The position numbers were made by a program, and so were the translations under genes. The notes beneath the pieces were generated by a model, which made no database searches, was not told where the DNA came from, and was given only the letters and a program-made list of their open reading frames with translations. A stretch of 38,127 nt of DNA from an uncultured Bacteroidales bacterium (GTDB lineage: Bacteria; Bacteroidota; Bacteroidia; Bacteroidales; Paludibacteraceae), in contig CAMOJP010000008.1 in assembly GCA_946617165.1 (NCBI GenBank), positions 1 through 38,127 of the forward strand, given 5' to 3'. Position 1 is the stretch's first letter. Each line of letters begins with the position of its first letter. This document shows positions 18,262 through 38,127 of the stretch, piece after piece.

Positions 18262-19797
18262 TTATTTCTCTTTCCACCAATTGAAGTGGTAAGCCAGTTT
18301 TACACCGACATCGAAATAACCGACTCCCTTACCATAAGCGTCGGTAGCAGGAATGACTGTTACGACAGCGTTCTTACCGGTAGCAGGAGCTTCGGTAATG
18401 TCAATAATAGACGAAGACTCTTTACCTTTGTAGAGAGAATATACGCTATAGTTACCATATACACCTATACCGAGAGAGTTACGATTTCTAAATGTAAACT
18501 CATAGCCTAACTCAGCACCAAGCATAATATTGATGGTAGAAGCATTCCATTTACCTTTGGAGTCAGCTTGTTCGTCGCTAACGACACCGGTAATCTGAAC
18601 GTTTTTAACCGTGACGCCCTCGTCCGGGAAAGTAGCACTGATCTCAGGGTCGGAAATTTTCTGGTTATAGTTTTCGTAAACCGGTAATGTAAAGCGGGGA
18701 CCTACATTGAAGAAGAAACCGTTTTCATGAATCATACTGAACATAACGGGTACTTCAAGTTGGATTTGGCCGTCATACTCTTTTGCCTTAGACGCTTTAA
18801 CCGTATAATCGAGGTAACCGGCACTCTCCTCTGTAGAAGGAACTTTAAAGCTTTCATCCACTTCACCGGAGACGTGTGAGCGAGCATAACCTGCACCTAA
18901 ACCGACAAGAAGACCGTATTGCATCTTCTTACCGAATTTCTTCCAGTAGTGAGCATATTGCAAGTCCAACATTACGTCAAATCCGACATTCCATTTTCCG
19001 TCTTTGAATGCGTCATCCATATTCTGGAGCAGAGAAGCTGCACCTCCACGCAGACCGATTGTGAAGCGGTCGCATGAGAAGTTTTGTTTCTGCTCGCTCA
19101 TTACTACGAATGCTGCTTCGTTACCGTTAGGATTATTATAGAAAGCCTCGCGTAAGGAGTCGCGGGTAGCCTTAGCCACAGAGTCACGATACTGGCGGTA
19201 AGCGGTTGAGTCTGCTTTAGCTTGCTCAATAGAATCCTGACGAGCTACAGCAGCCAATGAGTCTTGACGTGCAGCCTCTTGCGCAGCAGCTATAGCAGCA
19301 GCGGCAGCAGTAGCTTTGGCGATAGAGTCCTGTCGAGCGGCTTGTTCTTGAGCGGCTTGGATAGAGTCCTGTTCCGCCTTCTTAGCCGCAGCACGACGGG
19401 CTGCTTCCTGCTGTGCTTCCTGTTCGGCTTGCTGTTGAGCTTGCTGTTGAACTTGCTGTTGAGCTTGCTGTTGAGCCTTTTGTTCTTCCTGAGCCTTTTG
19501 AGGGGTAGAAGATTTCTTATAGATATCGTCCGGACCTACCCATGAATAGATACCGCGAATCAATATACCATTCGGCCAACGGCGGCCGCCAATTTGCTGA
19601 ATAGTATGCTCTATGTCATACACCCACTTGGACATTTTCTCACCGGTGAGATAACGCTCATGATTACGTTTAATCATGATGGTGTCACCAACGTTGAAGT
19701 CAGACGATGTCTCAGCAGGAGCAGTCTCTTGAGCTGACACACTCATTGCGAATAATAAACCGGTGGCAACGAATAAATTTCTCATTATTGTTTTCAT
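18262..19797 (-). CDS. Outer-membrane beta-barrel protein with N-terminal SH3-like domain and Gln/Ala-rich coiled-coil linker
   Basis: Signal peptide ending SVSAQ; FNVGDTIMIKRNHERYLTGEKMSKWVYDIEHTIQQIGGRRWPNGILIRGIYSWVGPDDI; (QQQA)n and ARQDS(I/L) linker; barrel-like strands to C-terminal AYHFNWWKEK. Confidence 0.8.
   Translation of the reverse strand: MKTIMRNLFVATGLLFAMSVSAQETAPAETSSDFNVGDTIMIKRNHERYLTGEKMSKWVYDIEHTIQQIGGRRWPNGILIRGIYSWVGPDDIYKKSSTPQKAQEEQKAQQQAQQQVQQQAQQQAEQEAQQEAARRAAAKKAEQDSIQAAQEQAARQDSIAKATAAAAAIAAAQEAARQDSLAAVARQDSIEQAKADSTAYRQYRDSVAKATRDSLREAFYNNPNGNEAAFVVMSEQKQNFSCDRFTIGLRGGAASLLQNMDDAFKDGKWNVGFDVMLDLQYAHYWKKFGKKMQYGLLVGLGAGYARSHVSGEVDESFKVPSTEESAGYLDYTVKASKAKEYDGQIQLEVPVMFSMIHENGFFFNVGPRFTLPVYENYNQKISDPEISATFPDEGVTVKNVQITGVVSDEQADSKGKWNASTINIMLGAELGYEFTFRNRNSLGIGVYGNYSVYSLYKGKESSSIIDITEAPATGKNAVVTVIPATDAYGKGVGYFDVGVKLAYHFNWWKEK
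19427..19474 (-). repeat. Four copies of a 12-nt tandem repeat (coding QQQA/QQQV units)
   Basis: Plus strand: GCTTGCTGTTGA, GCTTGCTGTTGA, ACTTGCTGTTGA, GCTTGCTGTTGA. Confidence 0.9.
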
Positions 19798-19812: not shown

Positions 19813-22800
19813 TTATTTAACGATGTAACGAAGGGTTAACTTAGTTTCTCCGGTCAACACCTCGACCATATAGAATCCGCTTTCTTTCTGCGCAGGCATT
19901 AAGAAGGTAGATTGGTCATTAACAGTATATTGATTGAGGAGTCTTCCGGCAGTAGAGAATACGCGAACGACGGTTGTTTTCTCTGCATCAAGATTTCTCA
20001 ACTGAATCTGCTCAGCCGGTTGCGCCAATGTAGGAACCAAGTGCGGAGCACCGGTAGGAGCATCACAGTCAACTACAACAGTCGTACCTACTCTTGCACA
20101 GCCGTCTTCTCCGTCTGCGACTTTGATGACAGCATAGTAGGAGCCGGTCAGCGGTTGTCCGGTTGTGTAGTAGAATCCTATAGCAATCGGTTCGTCAGAG
20201 CCCACTTTATACCACGTTACATCTTCTTCCGTATATTCCCATTTGGTCGTAGCGTCAATTTGGTTCTTATTGATCATCACAATCATATTACCATACTTAG
20301 CTACAGCAGGTAATACTTCGTATTGGTCATAAGTAAGATTGAGCGTCAACTTATAAACGGAGTCGCAACCTGCAACGGTATATAAGCTATCGTAATAAAC
20401 ACCACTCTTGATGTAACGTTGGTCACGCCATGTAAATTCGTTACATGCACTCTCGGTATCCTCGAACAGGTAAGAATTGTTCAGTACCAAGTGGAGCATT
20501 GCTAACGAGTCACAGCCTTCGGCATTAGTAAAGAGTTTCTCATAATCACCGGAAGCCGTATAACTATCTCCATTCCATATGTAACTATCAGCGCAGAGAA
20601 CGACCGTCTCCTTGGCTACAGGAGATGAGTAGTTAAGATGCAGTATCAATTCGTAAACGCTATCACCGCAGTACGGAGCAGGCTTAGCCTCATGATAGTA
20701 ATATGTACCACTCGCATCATAGGTTTCACCATTTCTTTCCCATTTGAAGGAGTCGCATGAGATAGTCGGAATTGTAGCCCAAACGGTATCATTGGAGCAA
20801 GACGCCGGTTTAATCTCAAAGAAAACTTCATAGCGTTGGACTTCATTATCGGCACAATAGCCTTTTACAACCAATAGGAGTGTATCAATACCAACTTCCT
20901 TATACGGAGTGACAGTATCCAACTTACCCTCTTGGGTTTCATCCAAATAACCATCCCCATCATATACGGGTTCTGCCCAATAAACAGTGTCAACTCGAAT
21001 GATGGAGTCAGCCGCTTCCGCCGCCGCTTTCATAAGTGCGGTGAGTTGGATGCTAGAAGCATCAACAGACAAGTTCTTATTAACCTCCAAGACAGGAGCC
21101 ATTCCCAAGTTAGTGATGGAGTCAGCATCAAGTGTATCAGGTTTCATGATAGGACGAACGATAAAGAGGGTTATTGAGTCTCTCATCTGTACGCCGTCTC
21201 TCCAACTTACGGTATCACTCCAAACCTGTTTTTCGTTGATGATTTCGTAGGTTTGTCCGGTAATGGTATCTCTATACGTTTCACCATTACAGATAAGCAC
21301 ATTAATTGTATCGCGGTCTATTTGACGCGGCAGCGTATCAATGAGTTCAACCCACATCCAAGTCGGTTGGTCTGCATTGTATTCGATACGCAGGTCTGAC
21401 CAGCCGACAGTAGCTAACAAGTCGCGGTCAGCATCAATAGAGTCGCTAATTGCAATACTCTTCGTCTCAGTTTTGGTAGCATCCTCGCGGCAGTCGAAGT
21501 AGAGTGAAGCAGTGATATTAGCGGTAGTACCGGGCTCTCCCCAGTTCTCAATATGGATACGCAGGTCTTTGTCTTCCGGAATCTTAGTCGAATCAATATC
21601 TACAATATACCAAAGAGTTTCGTTAGCAGGATGTACATTTCCGTGTTCCCAGTCGAATGTGATTGCCTCATCGCAGATGTCCCCATTAGCGCGATCTAAG
21701 GTAATACCCCACTTAACAGGTGCAGTCGGTTTGAACATCACATACATTGTGAGTGAATCTTCGGTAATGAATACGCGTGCCAGACTATCAATATAACTGA
21801 TATCGGTCTCATCGATAGAGAATCCTCCGCCACCACCGATACGGTTATTGAAGCGTCTAATCAAACTGCTGATAGCAGCCTTGAACGGTTTTTCAACCTT
21901 ACGGTTAGCGGTGAGGGTACGTGAGCGTTCCGGAATTTTGTAAGTAAGTGTATCCATCCATGTTGCGGTTGAAGTCACTTTAACATCAAAGTCATTCGGG
22001 TTCTCAACATATATCTTGGCGCTGTCAGTGAGGAGGTAGTTATTACGCATCTGCGGCAGACAAACGGCGAACCAGTTCTCCTCGTTAGCAGTCAAGGTAT
22101 ATACGACATTCGGTGCCGCCGTTTTAGCGATAGACTTGAGGTCTTTTTCAGGAGCGGTATCGTAGTCAGCGATAGAGGTAGCGAAATGAATCTCCTGATT
22201 GGTTTCAATACGGATATAGAGGTCTTTATCAGCCAATCCGTAGATGAAGTAAGCCGGGATATTATGCGTTGTGCTCTTTCCCGCAGGAATCTTACGCTCT
22301 TCACGTCCGTCGAAGAAATCTTCTCCGGCGCAATCCTCATAGACACCTACTTTAACGGTTGTTTTCTGAGTTGGTGAAGAAGCGACATGCACTTTCAAGC
22401 TCTTGCCGTGCAGTGTTTTGTCCTTCTTGAGGTCGGCTACGTTAATACGATACCACATAACGGTATTAGCAGCCTGGCTGATAGTATCTACCAATTGGAT
22501 TGGGCGAGCAGACATACAGTCATTACCCGTTTTCGGATCTTCGATAGAAGCCTTAAACTCAATAGCACCTTGCGCAATAACACGCATATAAACAACATCT
22601 TTGTTCATATACTGCTCAATCGTGGTACGAGCTATTTGTTTAGAAAGCGGCTGATTAGCAGAAAGGCTCTCTTTCTTTCCCATCATAGCTTGTGTAATCG
22701 GGCAAGCGAAAGCTCCCTCTACGAGTACGGTATTGCGAGAGTTGGTAAGGTTCTTAACATATGCCTTAGGTGCCAAGTCATTACCGGCAAACTTCTGCAG

Positions 22801-25184: not shown

Positions 25185-26750
25185 TTAATTATATTTTCGT
25201 CCGAGTAAATCGTATCGGTTTCCATTTCTAATTATAACTATTTGCCCCTCCTTCAGGTACTTACCTACCGCGGCTGGAGTTAAGATCGGATAGGTCGATG
25301 ACGTAATGATTTCTTCCCCTTTCAGGACAGTGACTAAGATGCGTCGGTCGCATTGTCCTTTTTGGGAAGCGGTAACGAGGGTATCGCCATATTGGTTGAG
25401 CACGATATTATACGGCGCATAAGTATAACCGGCTGTTATCTTGCTTGGAGCGACAATAACGGTATCATACTCCAAATCCGGTTCTTGGATTGTTACTTTA
25501 ATGGTATCAACTGCCCAAATATCGGGGGTTATCCATGCTGAATCGACAGCGGTTGTATCAGTTGAATACAGATTATCACCGAAGGCATAGCCTTTGCCTT
25601 GGCAAATGACGGTATCAATTCTCTCGTGCTGCGTGGTGTAGAGATGTTGAACGTGTATATACCAGAGTTGGTCACAAGTATTCTTTTTACGTATTGTAGA
25701 GGTGTAGTCTCCCCAGCCGTCTTTAGGGATATAGATATTACGATAGGACTTAGGCAGTTGAGATGCTGAGAGGCGCAGTGTATCAAACTGCGGTTCGACC
25801 GGTTCAACCGTCAGTTTGACAGTAGTCCAAGAGAGCGTATCACCACCGGTCCACATGGTGTCTTTGGAATAAACAGTAGTCTCCAGTAATACTGTATCGC
25901 GCAGTTCAAGGCGCTTACCGTGACAGAAAGTGGTATCAATGAGTTGCGCATTACGGATGATATTATTGTGGTAGATAATTCGTCCGACATAATCCTCCGG
26001 ATGTTCGACATGGATATAGAGGTTCTTTCCTGCCTGTTTAGCAGCCTTCACTTCAACAGAGTCCAGAGTCATGACATAGATAGAATCTTTCAGTACAGAG
26101 CGTCCTATTTCGGGACCGTTACATGAATCTTTGGTCACATAGACAGTAGCAGGCATATTTTTCTTCTGCTTCCATACTATAAATCCCCGGCCATAGGATG
26201 ACATACGCTCAGGAGTAAGTACATATACATTACTGGGTGCGGAGCATACATTAGCAGCTTTAGCGAATACAGGTAGAATATCATTGCAAGTTGAAACGGG
26301 TCCTTGGTCATACGGATAGCAGTAGACGGTACCTTTACCTTTGTTATTGGGATAGATACGGATATGCGGTGTAAGGGTTTGCGCCATCATCTGTGCCATT
26401 TCGCCCATTTCTTCAATTTTCTTATTGATTTTCTCCACTTCCATTTCCCTCAACTGGTTAGGTCCCACGGTGAGTGAGAAAGAAGGAATTTTAGAAGTAC
26501 AGAAAGCATACACATCGATTGTCACCGACACATCGGAATACCAGGAAGCGGATACGCCTCTCTTGATATCGTCCAGTGTAGCGGTGTACCAGACGGTGTC
26601 CTTTATCTCACGCTCCAGAGGGAAGGTAAAAGGGATAGAAGCATACCAACAGTCATCGTAGTAATAAGGGTTTTCAGACCACATATAATTTACGCAGGCT
26701 GTCAGCAGGAGCACTATGAACAATGTTTTTTTCATTACTGTTTTCATCAT
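25185..26750 (-). CDS. Secreted surface protein with short C-terminal NG-YDLLGRKYN tail (521 aa)
   Basis: Signal peptide; N-terminal WYTATLDDIKRG... module resembling the 1777-aa protein; two C-x-GK-type modules; tail LKEGQIVIIRNGNRYDLLGRKYN. Confidence 0.82.
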   Translation of the reverse strand: MMKTVMKKTLFIVLLLTACVNYMWSENPYYYDDCWYASIPFTFPLEREIKDTVWYTATLDDIKRGVSASWYSDVSVTIDVYAFCTSKIPSFSLTVGPNQLREMEVEKINKKIEEMGEMAQMMAQTLTPHIRIYPNNKGKGTVYCYPYDQGPVSTCNDILPVFAKAANVCSAPSNVYVLTPERMSSYGRGFIVWKQKKNMPATVYVTKDSCNGPEIGRSVLKDSIYVMTLDSVEVKAAKQAGKNLYIHVEHPEDYVGRIIYHNNIIRNAQLIDTTFCHGKRLELRDTVLLETTVYSKDTMWTGGDTLSWTTVKLTVEPVEPQFDTLRLSASQLPKSYRNIYIPKDGWGDYTSTIRKKNTCDQLWYIHVQHLYTTQHERIDTVICQGKGYAFGDNLYSTDTTAVDSAWITPDIWAVDTIKVTIQEPDLEYDTVIVAPSKITAGYTYAPYNIVLNQYGDTLVTASQKGQCDRRILVTVLKGEEIITSSTYPILTPAAVGKYLKEGQIVIIRNGNRYDLLGRKYN

Positions 26751-26762
26751 CTTAATTGTATT

Positions 26763-27620
26763 TTAATAATTCAGACAGACGCATGTCTTATGCGGTCTGA
26801 TTCCGACTAATAGTGTCAGTTTAGCGCCCACGGCGAGGGTGCGGGAAGTCATATCGCTGTTGCACTTAACGGTAGGCATGACGGTAGCATCGGTATAGGG
26901 AGCCTGCATAGTTGCCGCCGGCTGGTTTTGTCCGGGTCTGTAAGCGTTCAAAATACCGCAGTCCGCCCATATGCCCCATTTGAGCCGCAGGAGGCTTTGG
27001 TTATTTTTGTCAGGCAGGTTAATCGGTCCGCCTATTTCGAGGTGAGCAAGCAGTTGGACTCTCCATTTCAGTTGCTCATATGCCCCGCCGTTAGATTGGA
27101 CTAATATATCGGTTTGCGAGCCGGGTAATACGCCGTAGTAATCAGACCAGGCCTGTACATGCGCTTCGGCTTTGGCATCTCCCCAAACGGCGATAGCGGG
27201 TTTGAGTCCGGCAAGGAAATAAAAAGGTCCGAAGTCGCATCCTGCAGCAACAGGAAGAGCCAGATTAGCCATGCGGTAAGCTTCGCGGCGTTGGTTCATA
27301 ACTCCATATCGCATTATTTCCAGTCCGTTTTGCATCATACGCGTACTATCGCTAAAGGCATTGGCGCGGTTAGTCATATAGCCGAATTGTCCCTCCAAAC
27401 CGACGTGGATAACAAGCAGGCGGTTCACATATCGGTATCCGAGTCCGAGGTTAACGGCGGCTCCTTCACCGGGTTTGAGTTCGTTACCGGTAGTGAGCAG
27501 GGCTTGATATCCGGCACCCACCTCCACCGCAAAGAAATCGCGGAGATTGCGTCTATAGGGAGTAGCAACGACAGACATCGTTGTAGCAAGTACCAATATG
27601 ATAATCAAGCCGCGTTTCAT
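26763..27620 (-). CDS. Outer-membrane beta-barrel protein
   Basis: Signal peptide MKRGLIIILVLATTMSVVA; FAVEVGAGYQALL, AAVNLGLGYRYVNRLLVIHVGLEGQFGY, LAVGAKLTLLVGIRP strand pattern. Start at 27620 overlaps the preceding TAA (TAATG). Confidence 0.75.
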   Translation of the reverse strand: MKRGLIIILVLATTMSVVATPYRRNLRDFFAVEVGAGYQALLTTGNELKPGEGAAVNLGLGYRYVNRLLVIHVGLEGQFGYMTNRANAFSDSTRMMQNGLEIMRYGVMNQRREAYRMANLALPVAAGCDFGPFYFLAGLKPAIAVWGDAKAEAHVQAWSDYYGVLPGSQTDILVQSNGGAYEQLKWRVQLLAHLEIGGPINLPDKNNQSLLRLKWGIWADCGILNAYRPGQNQPAATMQAPYTDATVMPTVKCNSDMTSRTLAVGAKLTLLVGIRPHKTCVCLNY

Positions 27621-29224
27621 TAATAGACGATTAATTTGATTTTTTGCACTACATGCTTCATATTCGTTTCGCCCTCGGGCATACAAATGAGCACATAGAA
27701 TCCGGGCATCGCCGGTACCATTATTTTCTGTTCGCCTGTACTGTCCGTATATTCGCCACGCACTACCACTTTACCAGCAGGACCATAGAGGTAGTATTGT
27801 CCGGCACCGGCAGTAGCGGTAAGGTAGATATAGGGCTGAGCAGCGTCTATATAAGTCGGATGGACTGATACAACCGCACGTTTTTCGCTATCACTGATGG
27901 CACTTTGGTAGGTCGTCGGGCAGAGCCAAGTCGTGTCACAACCGGCGCAGTCGCGCGCAATGAGATAAGCGCTATACTCGCCGTCGGAGCGATTAGCCAT
28001 CCACAAGCGATCCACATCGGTATCGATAGGTGTATCATTGCACATCCACTGAATAGACATATCTTCGAAGTCCTCCACAAGTGCACGGTTGATAATAATC
28101 GCCTCGTCAATTCGGGTCAGAGCTTCGATACAGGTATATTCTTTTGGGAAACATTCGTCCGTAAGCGTGAGATGGAGTTGAATAACGGAGTCGCACCCGT
28201 CCACACTCTTGAGCGAATCGGTATAAACACCGGAAGTCAAGCACTTGTGTCCATGCCATGTATAAGACGAGTCGCATATAGTAACAAACGTGTCCACAGC
28301 AAAGGTAGGATTAACCGTCAGAATCAGTGAATGAAGCGAATCCTGATATACTTTACCCTCCACCGGACCGAGGATGGTATCTGTTGAATATATATCCGAT
28401 CGGGTGTAGGAATGTCCTCTCCATTGGTATGGCAGTTCGGACCGGCAAACCGTTGCACGAACTGTATCCTTCCATAGGTGTCGAATAGTCAGATTGAGCG
28501 TAATGATAGAGTCACAGCCTGCCACATTCTCGGTCGTATAAACAGGGCCGGAAATATTCTTGTAATACGTGATGCCGTTTATCCACTTGAGGCTGTCGTA
28601 TGCTACCACATTATCGGTATATTCGGACGGTTGGAGGATAGTAACAAGTTGTGTAACAACACTATCACAACCAAATGCATTAACAAAATGGCGGGTGTAC
28701 TTACCGGAGTCATAGATGGTGGTATCCCCCCATTGATACGCCACGCAAACGGCAGTATCCGGCAGCGTTTTCTCATCCGGTAGGCACGCAGGAATGATAA
28801 GTGCGGAAGCAGTCTCATGCGTAGCAAAATGGAGATAAAGTTGCTCTACCTCATCGTTTACGGGCTTCACCTCCCATTTCCACGCCATGCGGCAGTCGTC
28901 AAAAGTCATCTCAGAGAGCAGTGTATCACCACTCACGTAGTCAATGAGATACGGCACAGGTCCAAAAGCGGTATCAGGCAGATAGTACACCGTTGTCGGC
29001 AGATAAGCCACAGGCAGGACAAAGAAGTTCTCCTCTCCATCCGTTACCAATGCATCTGTGCGCATAACGATTGTAGGCGCGTTACTGACATTCGTACCGA
29101 GCGCGATTGCCTGCGAGCGCGCATACGAAGAAAAAGCAGGCATAAAGAGTACGCACAGCAAAGCCGTCACCCCGATTAGCCGGGTTGATACAGCGCTCAA
29201 TCCATATGTTTTTTCTGCTCTCAT
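27620..29224 (-). CDS. Secreted protein with CDS-type repeats, Ig-like region and T9SS-type C-terminal domain
   Basis: Repeats FGCDSVVTQLVTIL, AGCDSIITLNLTI, DGCDSVIQLHLTL; tail LYGPAGKVVVRGEYTDSTGEQKIMVPAMPGFYVLICMPEG. Start MRAEKTYGL (29224) fits the upstream promoter. Confidence 0.85.
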   Translation of the reverse strand: MRAEKTYGLSAVSTRLIGVTALLCVLFMPAFSSYARSQAIALGTNVSNAPTIVMRTDALVTDGEENFFVLPVAYLPTTVYYLPDTAFGPVPYLIDYVSGDTLLSEMTFDDCRMAWKWEVKPVNDEVEQLYLHFATHETASALIIPACLPDEKTLPDTAVCVAYQWGDTTIYDSGKYTRHFVNAFGCDSVVTQLVTILQPSEYTDNVVAYDSLKWINGITYYKNISGPVYTTENVAGCDSIITLNLTIRHLWKDTVRATVCRSELPYQWRGHSYTRSDIYSTDTILGPVEGKVYQDSLHSLILTVNPTFAVDTFVTICDSSYTWHGHKCLTSGVYTDSLKSVDGCDSVIQLHLTLTDECFPKEYTCIEALTRIDEAIIINRALVEDFEDMSIQWMCNDTPIDTDVDRLWMANRSDGEYSAYLIARDCAGCDTTWLCPTTYQSAISDSEKRAVVSVHPTYIDAAQPYIYLTATAGAGQYYLYGPAGKVVVRGEYTDSTGEQKIMVPAMPGFYVLICMPEGETNMKHVVQKIKLIVY

Positions 29225-29250
29225 GTATGCACGTGCGCGCAAAAACCGCG

Positions 29251-29282
29251 CAAAGTTACAACTTTTAGTTAAATTATGCAAA
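29251..29282 (-). promoter_or_regulatory. Bacteroidetes-type promoter inside the surface cluster, driving 29224 -> 18262
   Basis: Minus strand: TTTG (29282..29279) - 20 nt - TAACTTTG (29258..29251); ATG at 29224. Confidence 0.8.
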
Positions 29283-29299
29283 TATTTACTTAAAATTTA

Positions 29300-31162
29300 T
29301 CATTTTTTTATTACTATTTCCACTTTTTCGGTCATTCCGACCAGCGTATAATTGCCGGATTGTAGTTTGACGGAGTGCGGTGTATCCGCGGGCGTCTGGT
29401 GCCACGCATCGACCTGATTAGAGGCGGCATCGTATAAGACAAGGTCTTGTTCATTATTCACTTTGACGGATATTGTTTGTGCTCCGGACTGGTCTTTATC
29501 TCCGCAGGCGACATAGAGTGAGGCAGCGGGATATACAGGAGGTAACGGGTCATGTTCTTCGGGTGCGGTAGTAGTAAGAGTGAGGGTACCGCCTCCTGAT
29601 TTATCGGTGTATATGCGCATATAGATAAAGCCGTCTTCATCAATGACACGTGACGACCATGAGTCAATTGTTTCAGCGGTTATCGTTTTGATATTTGTAT
29701 TGCGCAAAACGGTAGTACTAATGACATTAGCAGCAGATGGGTTAGAGGTAATCTTGCAGGTGTCCGCGATAAGGACATAACATGGATTTGTTGAAGTAGC
29801 ACCACTAAACTTAACTGTAATGTTACCATCTCTCCAGAGAGAATAGAGCAATCGGAATATACGATCATCGCGTCGATTGACTTTTAGAGCAGTATCTTTC
29901 GGCGGAAGGTATATTGTAGTTCCGTCTTCTATGCAAGAAGATGGGTACCAACGTAGCGGAGTGATGGTCGTTTTAGCAGTGCACCATATTTTGATATAGA
30001 GATATTGCTCTGTCGTTTTGGTCCAAAGTTGCTGTAACTGAGCGGCATAGAGTCCGAGCCAGTGTCCTTCATTGCCTGGGAAGAACTGGTAGGAAGCAAT
30101 CGCTTGTTGAGGCAAGAAATCAGGGTCTTTACCGACATAGAGTTTAAAGACATGGTCAGTAGGAGTGGTAAATTTAGTATCCGTTGTCCACGTGTACGGA
30201 ATAGCGTATGTTTTAACGAGCGTATCGGACGGCGTAACGTCAGTAGCTCTGTTATAGCGCAGGAGAGTAGCCCCTCCGCGCGGTGGAGCTTGCGGCACGC
30301 GTTCTATCTTGAGTATTCCGGTACCCGTAGTATGCCATTTAGCGAAGAACATACCCGCCTCGGACGAGTAATCGCCTCCATTGACATAGTATTTAAGTTG
30401 TTCACTTGTAAGTTTAAAGGTATCCTTAGGTTGCAATTCCTCAAAGTTAGCGATGCGCGGGTTGGTGTTGTCATCCGGGTCAAAATCGCAATCGGTAGCG
30501 ACTGAGAGTTGGAGCGGTGCTGTACCGTTCCACACATAGCGGATAGAGTCCTCCATCCATTGGATATAGGGGACGATGACATGTCGCGATACATCGTTTG
30601 CGTTGACACGAATGGTGTCTCCGACGTGCATGAACTTACCGCCATCCATACAGTTACCGAAGGCATCGGGCGTCATGGTCATAGTACCGGTGGACTTATA
30701 AGTCACTTTGATATAGACAACTACGTTATAGTCGATACCCATTTGTAGGAGCAGGTCGCGGTATGTTTTACCCATAGCGATATAGTAGGCGAAGGAGCCG
30801 TCATCAAGGGTAGTGACTTTGAGTTCGGGTTTATGGGGCATATCAAATTCGATACCTCCGCTACCTGTTTTTTTGCAGAAGAGCGAGCACAGGATGGAGT
30901 CGGTATAAATACCCGGGGTACAGGTAAAATCCATCTCTACGATAGGTGGCTGATTAGGCGTAGATGTCTTAAAGTACACAGCGAGTGGCAGGTCGAAGGT
31001 ATTGGCAGAGTACCAGACAGTTCCGGTCTTAGAGATAGTAGCGGAATAGTCTTTACCGAGTGGAATCGGGTCATTGCAGGAATCACCTTGTTTGGCGAAA
31101 GCGTGCGTTACCGCCAAGAGCATAGCGGAAACGAGCAGCAGTATGTACGATGTATGTTTCAT
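29300..31162 (-). CDS. Secreted surface protein with WY-type modules and divergent C-terminal beta-domain (620 aa)
   Basis: Signal peptide ending THAFAK; CNDPIPLGKDYSATISKTGTVWYSANTF; ATDCDFDPDD; YLYIKIWCTAKTTITP; tail LVLYDAASNQVDAWHQTPADTPHSVKLQSGNYTLVGMTEKVEIVIKK. Confidence 0.82.
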   Translation of the reverse strand: MKHTSYILLLVSAMLLAVTHAFAKQGDSCNDPIPLGKDYSATISKTGTVWYSANTFDLPLAVYFKTSTPNQPPIVEMDFTCTPGIYTDSILCSLFCKKTGSGGIEFDMPHKPELKVTTLDDGSFAYYIAMGKTYRDLLLQMGIDYNVVVYIKVTYKSTGTMTMTPDAFGNCMDGGKFMHVGDTIRVNANDVSRHVIVPYIQWMEDSIRYVWNGTAPLQLSVATDCDFDPDDNTNPRIANFEELQPKDTFKLTSEQLKYYVNGGDYSSEAGMFFAKWHTTGTGILKIERVPQAPPRGGATLLRYNRATDVTPSDTLVKTYAIPYTWTTDTKFTTPTDHVFKLYVGKDPDFLPQQAIASYQFFPGNEGHWLGLYAAQLQQLWTKTTEQYLYIKIWCTAKTTITPLRWYPSSCIEDGTTIYLPPKDTALKVNRRDDRIFRLLYSLWRDGNITVKFSGATSTNPCYVLIADTCKITSNPSAANVISTTVLRNTNIKTITAETIDSWSSRVIDEDGFIYMRIYTDKSGGGTLTLTTTAPEEHDPLPPVYPAASLYVACGDKDQSGAQTISVKVNNEQDLVLYDAASNQVDAWHQTPADTPHSVKLQSGNYTLVGMTEKVEIVIKK

Positions 31163-31181
31163 AGGTCTACGTTTTTCGATG

Positions 31182-32018
31182 TTATCGGTTTTCTTTCTTC
31201 TTTACAACGCGGCAAGTGCTGTATGTGATTAGAGCTATCAGGAGCATCAACCAAGGGATATCGCCGATAGGAGTGTCGGGATCGGCTTGGTCTTGAACAT
31301 ATACCCAATCCGTTCCATTCTTACGATATACTTTACCACCTTCAATTTTCACTTCGGCGGGAACCCATCCTTCACCATCCCAATACCACCATCCTTCTGA
31401 ATCTTGAACGACTACTTCCTCTGTACCCGGTTCAGAAGGCATGCGTCTCGGTCCCATAGCCAGTCTGTTAGAACCGGTCGAAGCATCAGCGAGGAGTGAG
31501 GACGAAGATGCTGCTATATTTATATTATTGAACGCGAGCGTTTGCGTGCGCACACTTGGGAGCGCAAGCGCAATATGTGGGATGTTATAGGTTGAAGTGG
31601 AAGAAGACGAATAGGACGTTGTTCCTGTTGTTGCGTTTCCTCCGGCTCCAGCTCCTGAACCTAATGAGCGCACATGTTGGTCCGATGTCTGATGGACTCT
31701 ATACGTTGCGTTACTTGTGTGTACTTGTTGTGTTGTCGCTACTGCTGCGCGGTAGGATGGTGCTACACTATGATGGAAGAGTGAGCGTGATGACGTGGAA
31801 GTCATCGGTAGTGTCACAGTTGCCCTCGATCGCTGCGAAGTGGTATAAACGGCGGGGCCGTTATAGCGCGGAAGTGTTATTCCTTCCCAGTCGCCTACGG
31901 CAAAGGTTGTAACCTCGTCAGTGCTACGCACAATATTTCTTACGCCGAAGAAAATACTGGCTCCACACGCAAGTAGGACAATCGTCAAAATGACGTATTG
32001 TTTATGTCGGTTATGCAT
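31182..32018 (-). CDS. Bitopic Ser/Thr-rich surface-cluster protein with C-terminal PxGD-TM-basic tail (278 aa)
   Basis: N-terminal TM YVILTIVLLACGASIFFGV; low-complexity Ser/Thr middle; EGWWYWDGEGWVPAEVKIEGGKVYRKNGTDWVYVQDQADPDTPIGDIPWLMLLIALITYSTCRVVKKKENR. Confidence 0.8.
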   Translation of the reverse strand: MHNRHKQYVILTIVLLACGASIFFGVRNIVRSTDEVTTFAVGDWEGITLPRYNGPAVYTTSQRSRATVTLPMTSTSSRSLFHHSVAPSYRAAVATTQQVHTSNATYRVHQTSDQHVRSLGSGAGAGGNATTGTTSYSSSSTSTYNIPHIALALPSVRTQTLAFNNINIAASSSSLLADASTGSNRLAMGPRRMPSEPGTEEVVVQDSEGWWYWDGEGWVPAEVKIEGGKVYRKNGTDWVYVQDQADPDTPIGDIPWLMLLIALITYSTCRVVKKKENR

Positions 32019-32045
32019 TTTGTACCTTTATTTAATCAGACTTGT

Positions 32046-35000
32046 TTATCGTAGTTCGCACTGACGTCCCGTCATGTCATATACGCGATCTTGATAAATA
32101 ATATATACCTTATTTTTATACATAATCTTTTGCGGAGCATCATCGTTCGACTCTATGCTATTAACACCTGTAGTAACCGCAGGCGCTTCAGCAGCGAATA
32201 CGCATTGGATATAGAATCGTCCGGCATTAGTACCCGCATTGAGTTTAGCGGAATAATCGCGCTCAAGCAAGTCGATAACCAATCCGTTTTGTGTATCATG
32301 CAAAAGGACATGTTGCAGACGTCCGAGATAGTTATTCTCCATTAGCGAGAAGAGGAATTCACCTTCTTCGTTCGCATTAACGGTGATTGGGATTCTATTT
32401 TCCGCCAAGCTATCCGGCACAGCGGCAAAGGCAAGCTTACCGCAAGGCAACTCGGAATAGATTAGGGCTTTTCCGCCTGTGAGCGATTGTTTAGCCACAT
32501 CGTATCCAGTCTCATACTCAGGAGCGAATTTCTCGGGATGCGCATAGATACTTGTCTCATCGAGTTTATCGCCCTTGAGGTTACGAATAGCAAGTTGCAT
32601 CCACTGCGTCGGGATATAGGTATTCCATTCGCGTCGCGGAGCATTGAAGTACATAGCCTTATTAGTGAAATAGATTTTTCCATTATCAGAAGCCTGATAG
32701 TAGAACGGTACAGCCGGATAGATGATATCAGGTGCAGTTTGCTGATAGGAACCGTCTTGCTGAAGTTCACTAATCTTCAGTCGTTCTGAAGGATCGCTTT
32801 GTGGTTGTGAATATCTACCCATTAACGGTGAGCAAAGTGAATTCCAACCTGCATGATTTGGTCCTGCTTCACCAGAGTGGTAAGACACGCCGACTTCAGT
32901 CGTCTCGGTTTTAGGCAACGCTACCGGGAAGTAGTATTCGCGATAATACGGCGTATTAGAGAACATCTCATATCCTACAGAAGGCATGATAGTTGCATGA
33001 CCTTCTCCGTCAGGAGTCAATAAATCCCAGTTAGAACTTGTTTCAGAATTAACAGCTCCATTATTAGCACGAGATTTTTCATTATAACTCTTGAGCATCC
33101 AAGAGGTGTTATAGGTGCACTTGGAGTTATTAGAGAGTCGTACATTCTTGACATCACACTCCAATGGTATTGCAAATTGGAAGTACTTAGAATTATCTGC
33201 GATAATACGTGTGTAATAGGTATTAGTAGCAGTAATTGTACCATTATTAGTCAGAGATGCAGCTTGCCATGGAGTAGTACGCAGAACGAGTTTGTTCACG
33301 TTCAGCGTTACACCTGAATTTACGATTAACTCCGCTTCCGGACGAACGTAGATAGCATCGATAGTCACATTACCAGTAACCTTCAGTGTTCCGCTATTGA
33401 CTACAATAACGCGAGCTGGACTATTTGTCTCAGCCAGTTCTGCCGTTTCGCCATATACGTGCGGGATGGTATAGGTATGAAGGCTATAGATTATATTATC
33501 TTTATCCTTCACGGTTATGGTAAGTTTAGCGTCCGCACTGCCTGAATACGGGATAGTAAGCGTACGGTCTGCAGCACGATCGTTCTTCTCGTATGACGTT
33601 CCGTTGATGGTGTATGGCCATCCGGCAGCTGAGATACCATTCATGTTAATGGTCAATGTGGATGAAGTCCAATCAACAATATCCAATACGGGACCGATAT
33701 CCGTTTTCGGAGTACTATTAAACTGAGCCGTGTACGTAGCCTCACCCGTTACTGCAACAATCTCAGGCGACCATCCGGTAAACGAATAGGTATAACTTGC
33801 ATCCTCGGCCTTGGTCGGAGTTGTGCCGTTATATGCAGGCGTGGTGCCATAGGGTACATTTTCATCTGTCTCTAGCGTTGTGCCGTCTGCGTTCTTCCAT
33901 GTAACGGTATAGGTGTTAGTCATTTGAGTGAAGTGTGCAAAATAGGTAACATCAGCACTTACGTTAGGCGTAGCACCGATTTCATAGACCTTAGCACCAT
34001 TCTCTTCAGTTGCCCAACCATCAAAGGTATAAGTATATTGGGCATCAGCCGCCTTGGAAGGTTCTTCGCCCGAATAAACAGGCATAGTGCCTTTCTTCAC
34101 AGCAGTGCTCTGGAGCACATCGTCACCATTCTTGAAGGTGATGGTGTACGCCTCAGCTACTTCGTACTTGTACGGCGACTGACCGGCGAGGTCAAAGACA
34201 GAGTAGTTGGTAGCACAATAGGTCTCAATATTTGTATCATGAACATAGTAACCACCGCTGATGGAGATGGTTGCTGTTGTTCCTCCTTTATGTACATCCT
34301 TGTCCTGTCCATTAAACTTACCACCTTCAATGGTTATTTTGCTACCTGATTCATTCCTTGTAAAGGCCGCATAACGAGCTGAAGATGATGTTGCGGTAGC
34401 GGTATAGGTGCCGCTATGGATGGTAACGTTCGCATACGCGTAGGTATAGACGGCGATACTATTGTTCCCGGTTGATTTCGTTTCTACCTCGACATCGGTA
34501 AGCGAGACGGTAGCAGTAGAACCGGAAGCACCTCGTACATATATGCCACGTGGATTACCCGAGCCACCGTCTACTATTACAGTTCCTCCCGTCATATTCA
34601 GCGTAGAACCTGCTGCCACGTAGATGCCGAACACACTGGCATTAGCCGTATGATTAATCGTTCCGCCCGCACCGTTTATCGTGACGGTCTTGCCAGAGGC
34701 GCTAATCTTAAATACACCTGTAGAAGCGGTTGCTTGAGTACTTGACACGGTTTTGCCGTTCAAGTCAATCGTCATTGCGGCGGATATGGTTATCTCGCTT
34801 TCTACAGCATCATCTTGCAATATTGTAACCACGGCATCGGTCTTGCCGTTGGCGAACGTGATAGCATCTGCAACAGAGGCATAATAGGTCGTATTGTCGC
34901 TGACAGTGACGGAAGCCACGGTAGGCACGGTGTTATACGTAGCCGTGTAGGTTGCATCGCCGGAGATAGCACCAACAGCCGGTGTCCATGTGTTGAATGT

Positions 35001-38000
35001 ATATACATAACTTGCATCAGCATCCTTGGTCGGTGTTTCGCCGTCGTAGGTAGGTGTAGTGCCGTAGTCTACATTCTCGTCGGTCTCAAGCACCGTACCG
35101 TCTGCGTTTTTCCATGTAACAGTGTAGGTGTTGACTGTGCGAGTGAAGACTGCTTCGATAGTGGATATATTGCCGGTAATAGTAGCCGGTACATTGTTCC
35201 AATGGTCGAAAGTATAGGTGTATTGAGCGTCTGCCACAGTTGGTGTAGCGGTGATGGTAGAACCATTGACAGTCAGTTTATTGCCATCTACTGTTATTTT
35301 TGAGTCAGCCGGTATGCCTGAGAGCGAAGCCGGTGATACACTACCATAACCTGCAGGACTGATGCCTACTGCTGTTATTGAATAAGTCTTAATTGATTGG
35401 TTGTAGTAAGCCGTATAAGTTGCATTGGTTGTGACCGGATTTACCACCGTTGCCGGATTCCAATGGTCGAAGGTGTAAGTGTAGGTTGCATCTTCGTAGT
35501 CCAGCCCGCTTGTCGGGAATGCGGAGTTCTCGCCCCATTTCTTCTTATCACGCAGGATAATCGTTCCTTCCTCACGCTGATAGATTACATCGAACTGCAG
35601 AAGTGTCGGAGTATATTGCGCGGTGAAAGTTATCTCACCCTTGATAGCAGGCAGGGCTTCTCCTAAGCCTACGGAACCGGCTTCCCAACCTTCGCCGGCA
35701 GTCCAAGCCCAACCGCTGAACACATAGGAGTTACGGCTATCGTTGGGTTTCATCGGTGTCACGCCCGTGTATGCGGGTACCGTATTATAATCTATGGTCT
35801 GGTCCACATTGAGCGACACTCCGTTATAGTTGACGAAATGCGCGGTGTACTGACGTGGCGACTCATCGAAGAGGGCAGTATAAACCATCCCGTCTTCTGT
35901 GACAGGCACTAACGTAGCCGGCGACCACTCACGGAAGGTGTAGTCGGTGCTGACCGTTGAAGCCATCGTCGGGTTGGCAGGGAAGGCAGCCGGTGTATCT
36001 TCGTAAGAGAAGAACGGCGCGTCGATAATCGAACCGTCCTGACGCTTGAAGAAGACTTGGTATTTCAGCTCTGTCTGCTCGAAGGTAGCGATATACGATA
36101 TATCACCCTTCACTACCGGCAGGGTAGCAGAGGTGGTATAGGTGGTTGCGCCTTGCTGCCATCCCGTCCAGTTGTATGAGTAAGCGGAGGTGTTCGCACG
36201 GAACGGCGTTACGCCACTGTAAGTCGGGCTGGTGTTATAGTTCACATCGGCTTCGTATAATACCGACACCGCATCGTAGTTATAGAAGGTGACGTGGTAC
36301 TGACGTGTGGAATAACTATACTGAGCGGTGTAGGTAGCCGCAGCGGTGACAGTTGCGAGTGTGGTGTTCCAACCGGTAAAGGTAAATACCTTGTCCACCG
36401 TCGGGGCTTTCTGAGGAACAATACTACCAGTTTTTTCATTATATTTGGTTTCAAACAGAGCTTGTAGTTCATCCCCTGTCGTGCCTGCATCTACCAGACC
36501 TGCCCAAAGATCGGAGTTATCATCGTTCTTAAAGGTAATGGTGTACTGGAACTTTGATGTATTGAAATACGCTGTATAAGTCACATTGCTCGTTGCGCGC
36601 GGAAGGGTCGCGTTCTTATCATAGATATTGCCTTCCGCATCGCGCCATCCAATCCAATCGTGTTTCTCCGTCGCAGAGTTTGCCCATGTCGGATTCGTAC
36701 CAAAGAACTGCGGAGAAGTGTTGAAATTATATTCATCCCCGAATGTACCGTTCGTTATCTTATTTCCATCCTTGTCATTCCATATGACTGTCACTTTCTT
36801 GGGTTTCCAGTAACTTACACTATTATCCCAATAGTAATAGGTTCCGAAGTTATCAAAGTTCTCGTTATTCGCCACATAATATGTAACCGCATCAATTACT
36901 TCTGGCGTCGGATTTACTTCCCACCATACGCAACTTGCATTAGTAGAAGCCGCCTCAGCATTAACGAACATACGTGTTGATGCCAAATTGTGATATGCAT
37001 GATCTCCATTTGCATTCTCTTCAACAGCCACGAAATCAGAGGGATGAATATATTGCTTGGTATCAGCGCCCTTAATCTCGGTAAAGCACCCATTATCTTT
37101 TACACTAAGCCAACGATACACACCATCGGCAGGATCTTCCATATACGCGTAGATTTCTCCTGATGCTGCTCCTGTTGTCGGGGTGTATTCGCCATCTTCA
37201 TTTTTAAGTTTGGCTGATGTTAATGCTTTTCCGACATATTGCACTTTATCATTTGCATACCCCACTATTTGGCATAGAGTTGTATTTTTCGTGCCCGTAA
37301 ACTGCGCAATTGCTTCTGTAGAAGCAGGTGCCACTGCATTGAATTTTATTTTACCGGAGTTTTCACGAGTAGAGAAGATATTACCTCCTCCAGCAGTCGT
37401 ATAGATAGAACCATTAACAGTCAAGGTACCGGCTATCTCGATTTTAGCATCCGGCAATTTCGTAGCAGTACGAGGACATGCCTTCCATGATGGCGAATAG
37501 CCTATTTTATGGTAATATCCACCATACGAACTCCAATCGTCGGAATCATATACAAATACACGTTTCCCACTTGCCACTACCAAATTTGCCTCCTTATTGA
37601 CAATGGCTTCAGAACCAGGGAGGAAACAAATATCATTTGTAATATTAATATCGCCCTCATTGGCCACAATCTTAAAGTTGGTTGCCATTGGCAATACATA
37701 ATCCGATGTATTCATGTCTACATCAATGAATGATGCGCTAATCTTTAGGCGAAAACTGCCAAGGGATGCACCACTATTCAATGTCCACACCAATTGATCC
37801 TTCTCGGAATCATATTCTTTCCTTACCCATGTATTTTCACCGGCAGTAGCTGGCGACATCAGGAACATAGCTCCACTTGTTCCTACCATTGTTACAGGGT
37901 CTGATTTCCCTTGAATATATAGTCCGTAATTTGCTTTCTCCATATAACATCCGCTATATGCAATCGCTTTCGCTCCCGGACGATAAGTAATAGGACACTC

Positions 38001-38127
38001 AACATTCTGGAAATAGTAATCTGTCAGAAGGAACACACCTTTACTCCCCAGACCATTTTTATTTCCATTAATGTCAGAGCTAATAGTTCCTCCTCGCCAG
38101 TCTCCCATTTGGAAGTCCTCATAAATA
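32046..38127 (-). CDS. Giant surface protein with InlB/Listeria-Bacteroides-type B-repeats and beta-helix-like segment; 5' end beyond the window
   Basis: Frame stays open from 38108 to the window edge (...[13 protein letters not shown]), so the listed M at 38108 is not a proven start. Repeats [49 protein letters not shown] etc. C terminus [27 protein letters not shown]. Confidence 0.9.
   Translation of the reverse strand, partial: [2026 protein letters not shown]
33718..36815 (-). repeat. About ten B-repeat-like protein modules of roughly 70-80 aa, interrupted by a beta-helix-like segment (about 34165..34915)
   Basis: Recurring Y-VTF/W-N-DG ... Y-T-P-Y-G--P ... Y-YTF-GW-P ... V-GD-TYTA-Y pattern; eight modules in the N-terminal part, two C-terminal to the beta-helix-like segment. 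Confidence 0.85.

Follow-up and report, generated by a model that had tools for sequence, protein, structure and literature searches.

A Bacteroidales outer-membrane barrel protein with an endolysin-type SH3-like domain, a candidate wall anchor for giant surface proteins

In the Bacteroidales contig studied here, the gene directly downstream of a giant surface protein encodes an outer-membrane (OM) beta-barrel that carries, behind its signal peptide, an SH3-like domain homologous to a domain of phage endolysins. We propose, with a probability of roughly 60%, that this protein is a dedicated OM anchor of the giant protein, with a periplasmic foot that binds the wall. The window, meaning the whole stretch of DNA that was analysed (38,127 nucleotides), is the entire contig C8 of a 1.6-Mb metagenome bin that is about 80% complete. 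Coordinates of the features are collected in Table 1. Ala22 of the signal peptide is conserved (alignment A2), and the signal peptide is followed directly by FNVGDTIMIKRN...SWVGPDDI.

Table 1. Features of the SH3-barrel gene and of its upstream neighbours in the window.
Feature	Position	Strand	Basis
Whole gene, signal peptide - SH3-like domain - helical linker - OM beta-barrel, 511 aa	18262..19797	-	ORF list (ATG start); orthologues
Signal peptide, residues 1-22, of type I appearance, without lipobox Cys	19732..19797	-	read from MKTIMRNLFVATGLLFAMSVSAQ
SH3-like domain of the phage-endolysin kind, residues 31-96	19510..19707	-	tblastn, HMM, hhalign, AlphaFold, BFVD
Ala/Gln-rich helical linker, residues 97-238	19084..19509	-	AlphaFold; composition and length vary among relatives
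8-stranded OM beta-barrel, residues 239-511, PF13568-like	18265..19083	-	Pfam, AlphaFold, Foldseek
Presumed partner, a giant surface protein of 1777 aa with repeated modules of ~100 aa	19813..25146	-	directly upstream, 15-bp gap
Sorting domain at the C terminus of the giant protein, T9SS type A (TIGR04183)	19816..20007	-	25.6 bits, cut-off 23
521-aa protein next upstream, same gene run	25185..26750	-	homologues in the same place in L047, L059, L060, L063

An earlier note on this DNA had pointed to a resemblance between the N-terminal part of the protein and SH3-like domains of Firmicutes and phage amidases, and the resemblance to phage amidase and muramidase domains turned out to be real homology. 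With tblastn against 50,697 phage records, the domain matched 222 of them, the best at E=7e-6 with 37% identity over 60 aa, and among the phage matches listed the annotated rows were lysin/endolysin or other cell-wall hydrolase genes. An HMM made of phage-type domains only (15 domains, one of which comes from a prophage-like contig of a related bin) found the window protein at E=3e-11 and 41 bits; its best match among 4,845 background targets, which were the remaining window ORFs plus 50 shuffled versions per ORF, had an E value of 1.3. Moreover, hhalign of the Bacteroidales profile against the phage profile gave a probability of 98.9 and E=3.7e-17 over 65 columns. The SH3-like domain is homologous to an unnamed domain of Firmicutes-phage endolysins, and the likeness is beyond chance. 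The homology to the endolysins TP901-1, TP712, phiEf11, phiFL4A, Lc-Nu and Lys44 extends over the full ~60 residues, including TGE....WV and I.SW, and tandem copies occur on both sides, as revealed by some Bacteroidales proteins and by the amidase of Enterococcus phage EG103P3, where nothing is recognised but Amidase_2 and a tandem pair of the domain. The context differs, since in the phages the domain is joined to GH25 or Amidase_2 catalytic domains whereas here it is found on OM barrels without an enzyme domain.

In the phage proteins examined, the domain fills the Pfam-blank stretch between or behind GH25/Amidase_2 and LysM. For example, residues 258-319 of LysTP712 carry it, an endolysin whose wall binding was assigned to LysM alone, the part with which it had been assayed (PMC4749879). 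Considering its occurrence in lysins, the domain most likely binds peptidoglycan non-covalently. The SH3-like domain alone gave no Pfam match at E<=10 and has no Pfam model, a PDB sequence search with the domain and with its profile returned nothing convincing, and in IMG/VR its Bacteroidales-type pattern found no viral relative. Likewise, the conserved ~60-aa domain between the catalytic and LysM parts of endolysins such as L032, L158 and L161 has no Pfam or NCBIfam model, and it deserves a family entry of its own.

Structure prediction agreed with the expectation of an SH3-like fold for the N-terminal part. The domain alone was modelled by AlphaFold (51 sequences) as a compact SH3-like fold of five short strands with a pLDDT of 89.5, and the Foldseek search of BFVD with this model gave a best match at E=6e-5 and TM 0.74; lower in the list were a phage lysozyme at TM 0.66 and, at TM 0.71, a CHAP-domain protein. 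Against the PDB, Foldseek returned only weak matches (E>=0.12), many of them generic SH3-like barrels, for instance PsaE, ribosomal L21e and nitrile hydratase beta. By Pfam, the domain is not an SH3b domain of the SH3_3 or SH3_5 type, and the endolysin domain to which it is homologous lies outside the named SH3b families.

The full-length model (50 sequences) had a mean pLDDT of 83.9 and a pTM of 0.53, the latter being expected for parts that are flexibly joined. It contains the domain at residues 30-98, two helices (100-181, 186-220) and, between residues 240 and 509, eight strands, so that the Gln/Ala-rich helical linker and the C-terminal barrel of the earlier note were both predicted at good confidence, the linker helix for a monomer only. 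An obligate coiled coil is argued against by the many relatives with Pro-rich linkers. Hits of coiled-coil and DNA polymerase-like families were rejected as low-complexity matches of the Ala/Gln linker. PF13568 (OMP_b-brl_2) matches the barrel weakly, at E=1.6e-4 and under the curated cut-off, 11 of 50 relatives match it at E<=1e-3, and the full model retrieved generic OM barrels only from the PDB with Foldseek.

OM barrels have short turns on the periplasmic side and long loops outside. In the model, the turns after strands 2, 4 and 6 are short, with 4-6 residues (286-292, 357-361, 435-441), and two loops on the opposite side have about 40 residues (382-423, 454-493), which would place the N-terminal domain and the C terminus in the periplasm. 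This topology was read from the secondary structure of the model rather than from its coordinates, and together with the signal peptide it points to both termini being periplasmic, as had been claimed for the SH3-like domain. Neither outcome by which the earlier note would have been refuted, an N-terminal part lacking an SH3-like fold or a barrel with its N terminus outside the cell, was seen in the models.

We also looked at the genes around the barrel. The earlier note had placed it under a locus of giant surface proteins, and indeed the 1777-aa protein ends 15 bp upstream. The same order recurs among relatives: the main-type SH3-barrel gene lies <=25 bp downstream of the preceding gene in 68 of 69 loci, nearly all of them from one family so that locus counts are not independent. 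Where the upstream protein is complete, its median length is 1,773 aa, and 56 of 64 upstream C termini match TIGR04183, being of type A and not type B, although a whole genome contains only 9-41 such matches. Barrel paralogues that lack the SH3-like domain likewise come after a protein with a T9SS-type C-terminal end, at all 11 of 11 loci, though for several this end was recognised by eye; their partners are smaller, with a median of 265 aa (p=0.003, uncorrected for relatedness). Judged from these sequences, the barrel group is linked to surface proteins of the T9SS, and it seems to be the giant partners that are accompanied by the wall-binding part. The genome has its own T9SS translocon SprA and a true PorP, the latter encoded elsewhere than the window gene. 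A promoter and terminator scan around the SH3-barrel gene gave nothing usable above chance.

The giant protein consists of about ten ~100-aa modules of the form FDW..G......WY.VD that are not recognised by Pfam. Upstream, the run at 25185-38108 (-) also encodes a second giant protein of 2020 aa, another OMP_b-brl-like barrel at 26763-27686 and several large proteins without a Pfam family, and parts of this run recur in related loci. Two SH3-less barrels, L153:9674-11311 (-) and L154:8754-10499 (+), have a Lys/Arg-rich N-terminal extension of 255-294 residues and sit behind T9SS proteins of 2,554 and 2,612 aa.

The dedicated anchor that we favour would work as follows. The 1777-aa protein would be exported by the T9SS and stay at the surface, where the barrel encoded 15 bp downstream of it is probably its OM partner or anchor; that the barrel physically binds the giant protein we infer from gene order. 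The spacer of ~140 residues would cross from the barrel to the wall and the SH3-like domain would hold peptidoglycan non-covalently in the periplasm, so that load on the giant protein could be passed through the barrel to the wall. The partner barrel would thus have gained a wall-binding module of its own. Such a barrel is not required by what is known of the secretion system, because type A CTD proteins normally use PorV and A-LPS: collection by PorV, and fixing to A-LPS in P. gingivalis, have been described for them (PMC9143113, PMC12618676). A dedicated barrel beside a type A protein, as gene order suggests here, would be new.

A function as a general tether between OM and peptidoglycan, like OmpA or OmpM, with the place behind the giant protein only historical, is unlikely in our view but deserves discussion. 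Its domain order is that of OmpM and SlpA (PMC10628300, PMC9388160), and the domain is also found on barrels without an adjoining T9SS giant, namely the asnS-linked TonB-like and the DUF3575 proteins described below. Against it, 3-12 OmpA-domain proteins are present in every genome tested, with or without an SH3 barrel, the gene is patchy, as a search for the domain drew a blank in eight genomes of the same genus that are 92-98% complete, and it is tightly paired with one class of surface protein. The dedicated anchor fits better because the OmpA-domain proteins are kept and the patchy gene travels with one surface-protein class. For the same reasons, the claim of the earlier note that the protein holds the OM to the wall is probably too general as it was worded.

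We consider it improbable, and somewhat more so, that the SH3-like domain has lost peptidoglycan binding and docks on a periplasmic protein, for instance of the T9SS ring or track, which would make the protein an SprF-like T9SS carrier with a different handle. The link of the barrel group to T9SS substrates would suit such a carrier, and SprF, which carries SprB, is bonded to the track protein GldK, SprF-type carriers attaching to it by a periplasmic tail (PMC12635249). However, the residues shared with the phage domains are kept, the domain also occurs on barrels unlinked to T9SS substrates, and the window barrel is not of PF11751. An outward-facing domain that binds the walls of Gram-positive neighbours, on which its only known relatives act, is very hard to sustain, since the N terminus is periplasmic in the model, the domain could not fit through a barrel of only 8 strands, and in the TonB-like relative the domain precedes CarboxypepD_reg, a periplasmic domain. 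An assembly or binning artefact or a chance-fused prophage remnant, conceivable for a metagenome bin of 80% completeness, is excluded for practical purposes by the number of independent genomes, with more than 100 places in separate bins of several genera in the same gene order, and in L046, the sole prophage-like contig of the family with a phage-type domain, the surroundings are of another kind, namely baseplate genes.

The known connectors between OM and wall are few and well defined: Lpp, Pal, OmpA and OmpM/SlpA. OmpM consists of an SLH domain, a stalk and a 16-stranded trimer (PMC10628300) and SlpA of an SLH domain, a coiled coil and a 30-stranded trimer (PMC9388160), and both link the OM to the wall in Terrabacteria. 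The window protein resembles them in the order of signal peptide, presumed wall-binding domain, helical stalk and barrel, with an N-terminal end that the model places in the periplasm. On the other hand, an unrelated endolysin-type SH3-like domain replaces the SLH domain, for which the domain-library searches gave no match in the window protein, the barrel has 8 strands and not the 16 or 30 of their trimers, and the protein belongs to Bacteroidota, while OmpM is reported absent from Gracilicutes such as Bacteroidetes (PMC10628300). The earlier note knew of no described family with this architecture. The protein is not a member of OmpM/SlpA, but the layout itself has a precedent in the SLH-coiled coil-barrel proteins (PMC10628300).

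With the OmpA family the window protein shares an 8-stranded barrel and a presumed periplasmic wall-binding part, which differs in being N-terminal, SH3-like and on a long linker, and PF00691 was not matched in the domain-library searches. PorP interacts with a type B CTD protein as well as with PorE, which attaches to peptidoglycan by its C-terminal domain, and PorP-PorE complexes have been proposed to fix non-moving surface proteins to the wall (PMC9143113). Like PorP or SprF with PorE, the window protein is an OM barrel encoded beside a T9SS-exported surface protein; unlike PorP/SprF, its barrel is PF13568-like without a PF11751 match and its partner carries a type A CTD instead of type B, and unlike in PorP-PorE, barrel and presumed wall-binding part form a single protein, the latter part not being OmpA-like. 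By analogy, the window protein might at most work like OmpM/SlpA and PorP plus PorE, and it belongs to neither family. In the literature covered, which left subscription journals mostly outside, no SH3-barrel connector was found described in Bacteroidota, and the window protein would represent a hitherto undescribed kind of OM anchor.

Among 200 genomes of the family, 35 (one of them being a prophage-like contig), from 7 of 33 genera, matched the profile of the domain, and no match appeared among 388 genomes from elsewhere in the class. When 85,462 species genomes were scanned, 117 places were confirmed, of which 80 were kept, all in Bacteroidales bins. The named relatives are mostly labelled Paludibacteraceae and many come from ruminants, horses and other herbivores. 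Nearly all of them keep the order of signal peptide, one or two SH3-like domains, variable linker and barrel. The linkers have 60 to 183 residues, either Ala-rich and helical or of Pro/Glu repeats. The idea that the linker acts as a ruler predicts shorter extended linkers and was rejected, since helical linkers (P<6%) have a median of 114 aa and Pro-rich ones of 100 aa (p=0.99).

The domain is also present on other kinds of barrels. At 9 loci behind asnS, an N-terminal SH3-like domain is followed by CarboxypepD_reg and a long TonB-receptor-like region. These proteins of 1213-1247 aa (L133, L084, L088, L090, L092, L104, L109, L111 and L142) always come directly behind the same 465-aa gene, which we take from its C-terminal sequence to be asnS, encoding asparaginyl-tRNA synthetase. 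In addition, at L083:7914-9056 (+) the SH3-like domain precedes DUF3575 (PF12099, E=2.8e-43). The genes after it have products that begin like lipoproteins, and by sequence this gene run looks like a fimbria-type locus. The N-terminal position of the domain on three unrelated barrels would be hard to explain if it were not on the periplasmic side.

A wider proposal, which we offer tentatively and would not put at even odds, is that a wall-binding domain of phage lysins has become in Paludibacteraceae a periplasmic anchor that can be moved from protein to protein. It would have been fused to no fewer than three unrelated OM barrels, and each of these would form the base of its own type of surface structure: giant proteins of the T9SS, a TonB-receptor-like protein, or a fimbria-type locus with DUF3575. 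A single polypeptide would then connect surface appendages across the OM with peptidoglycan, a task for which PorP and PorE are proposed to act jointly. If true, Bacteroidota would have arrived independently at the OmpM/SlpA layout, with a connector built from a domain of phage lysins. Such a connector would show how diderm envelopes and the phages of Gram-positive bacteria can have wall-binding parts in common, and would hint at the way in which bacteria of the herbivore gut keep their giant T9SS surface proteins in place under load. Peptidoglycan binding by this small, conserved and unnamed domain would matter for the bacterial proteins and for a large set of endolysins alike.

Two further observations concern the domain itself. 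At L046:5593-6270 (-), where another bin of this family has tail genes of prophage type, a phage-type copy is C-terminal in a 225-aa protein similar to PHROG 15956, encoded between the GPD hub and baseplate J genes; LysM occurs on comparable tail proteins of other phages. Moreover, the window copy has no cysteines, and at least two cysteines are present in 28 of 85 domain copies, typically as REC...WxCxxC and in many same-genus relatives (e.g., L009, L014 and L020), where such pairs could form a disulfide or bind a metal.
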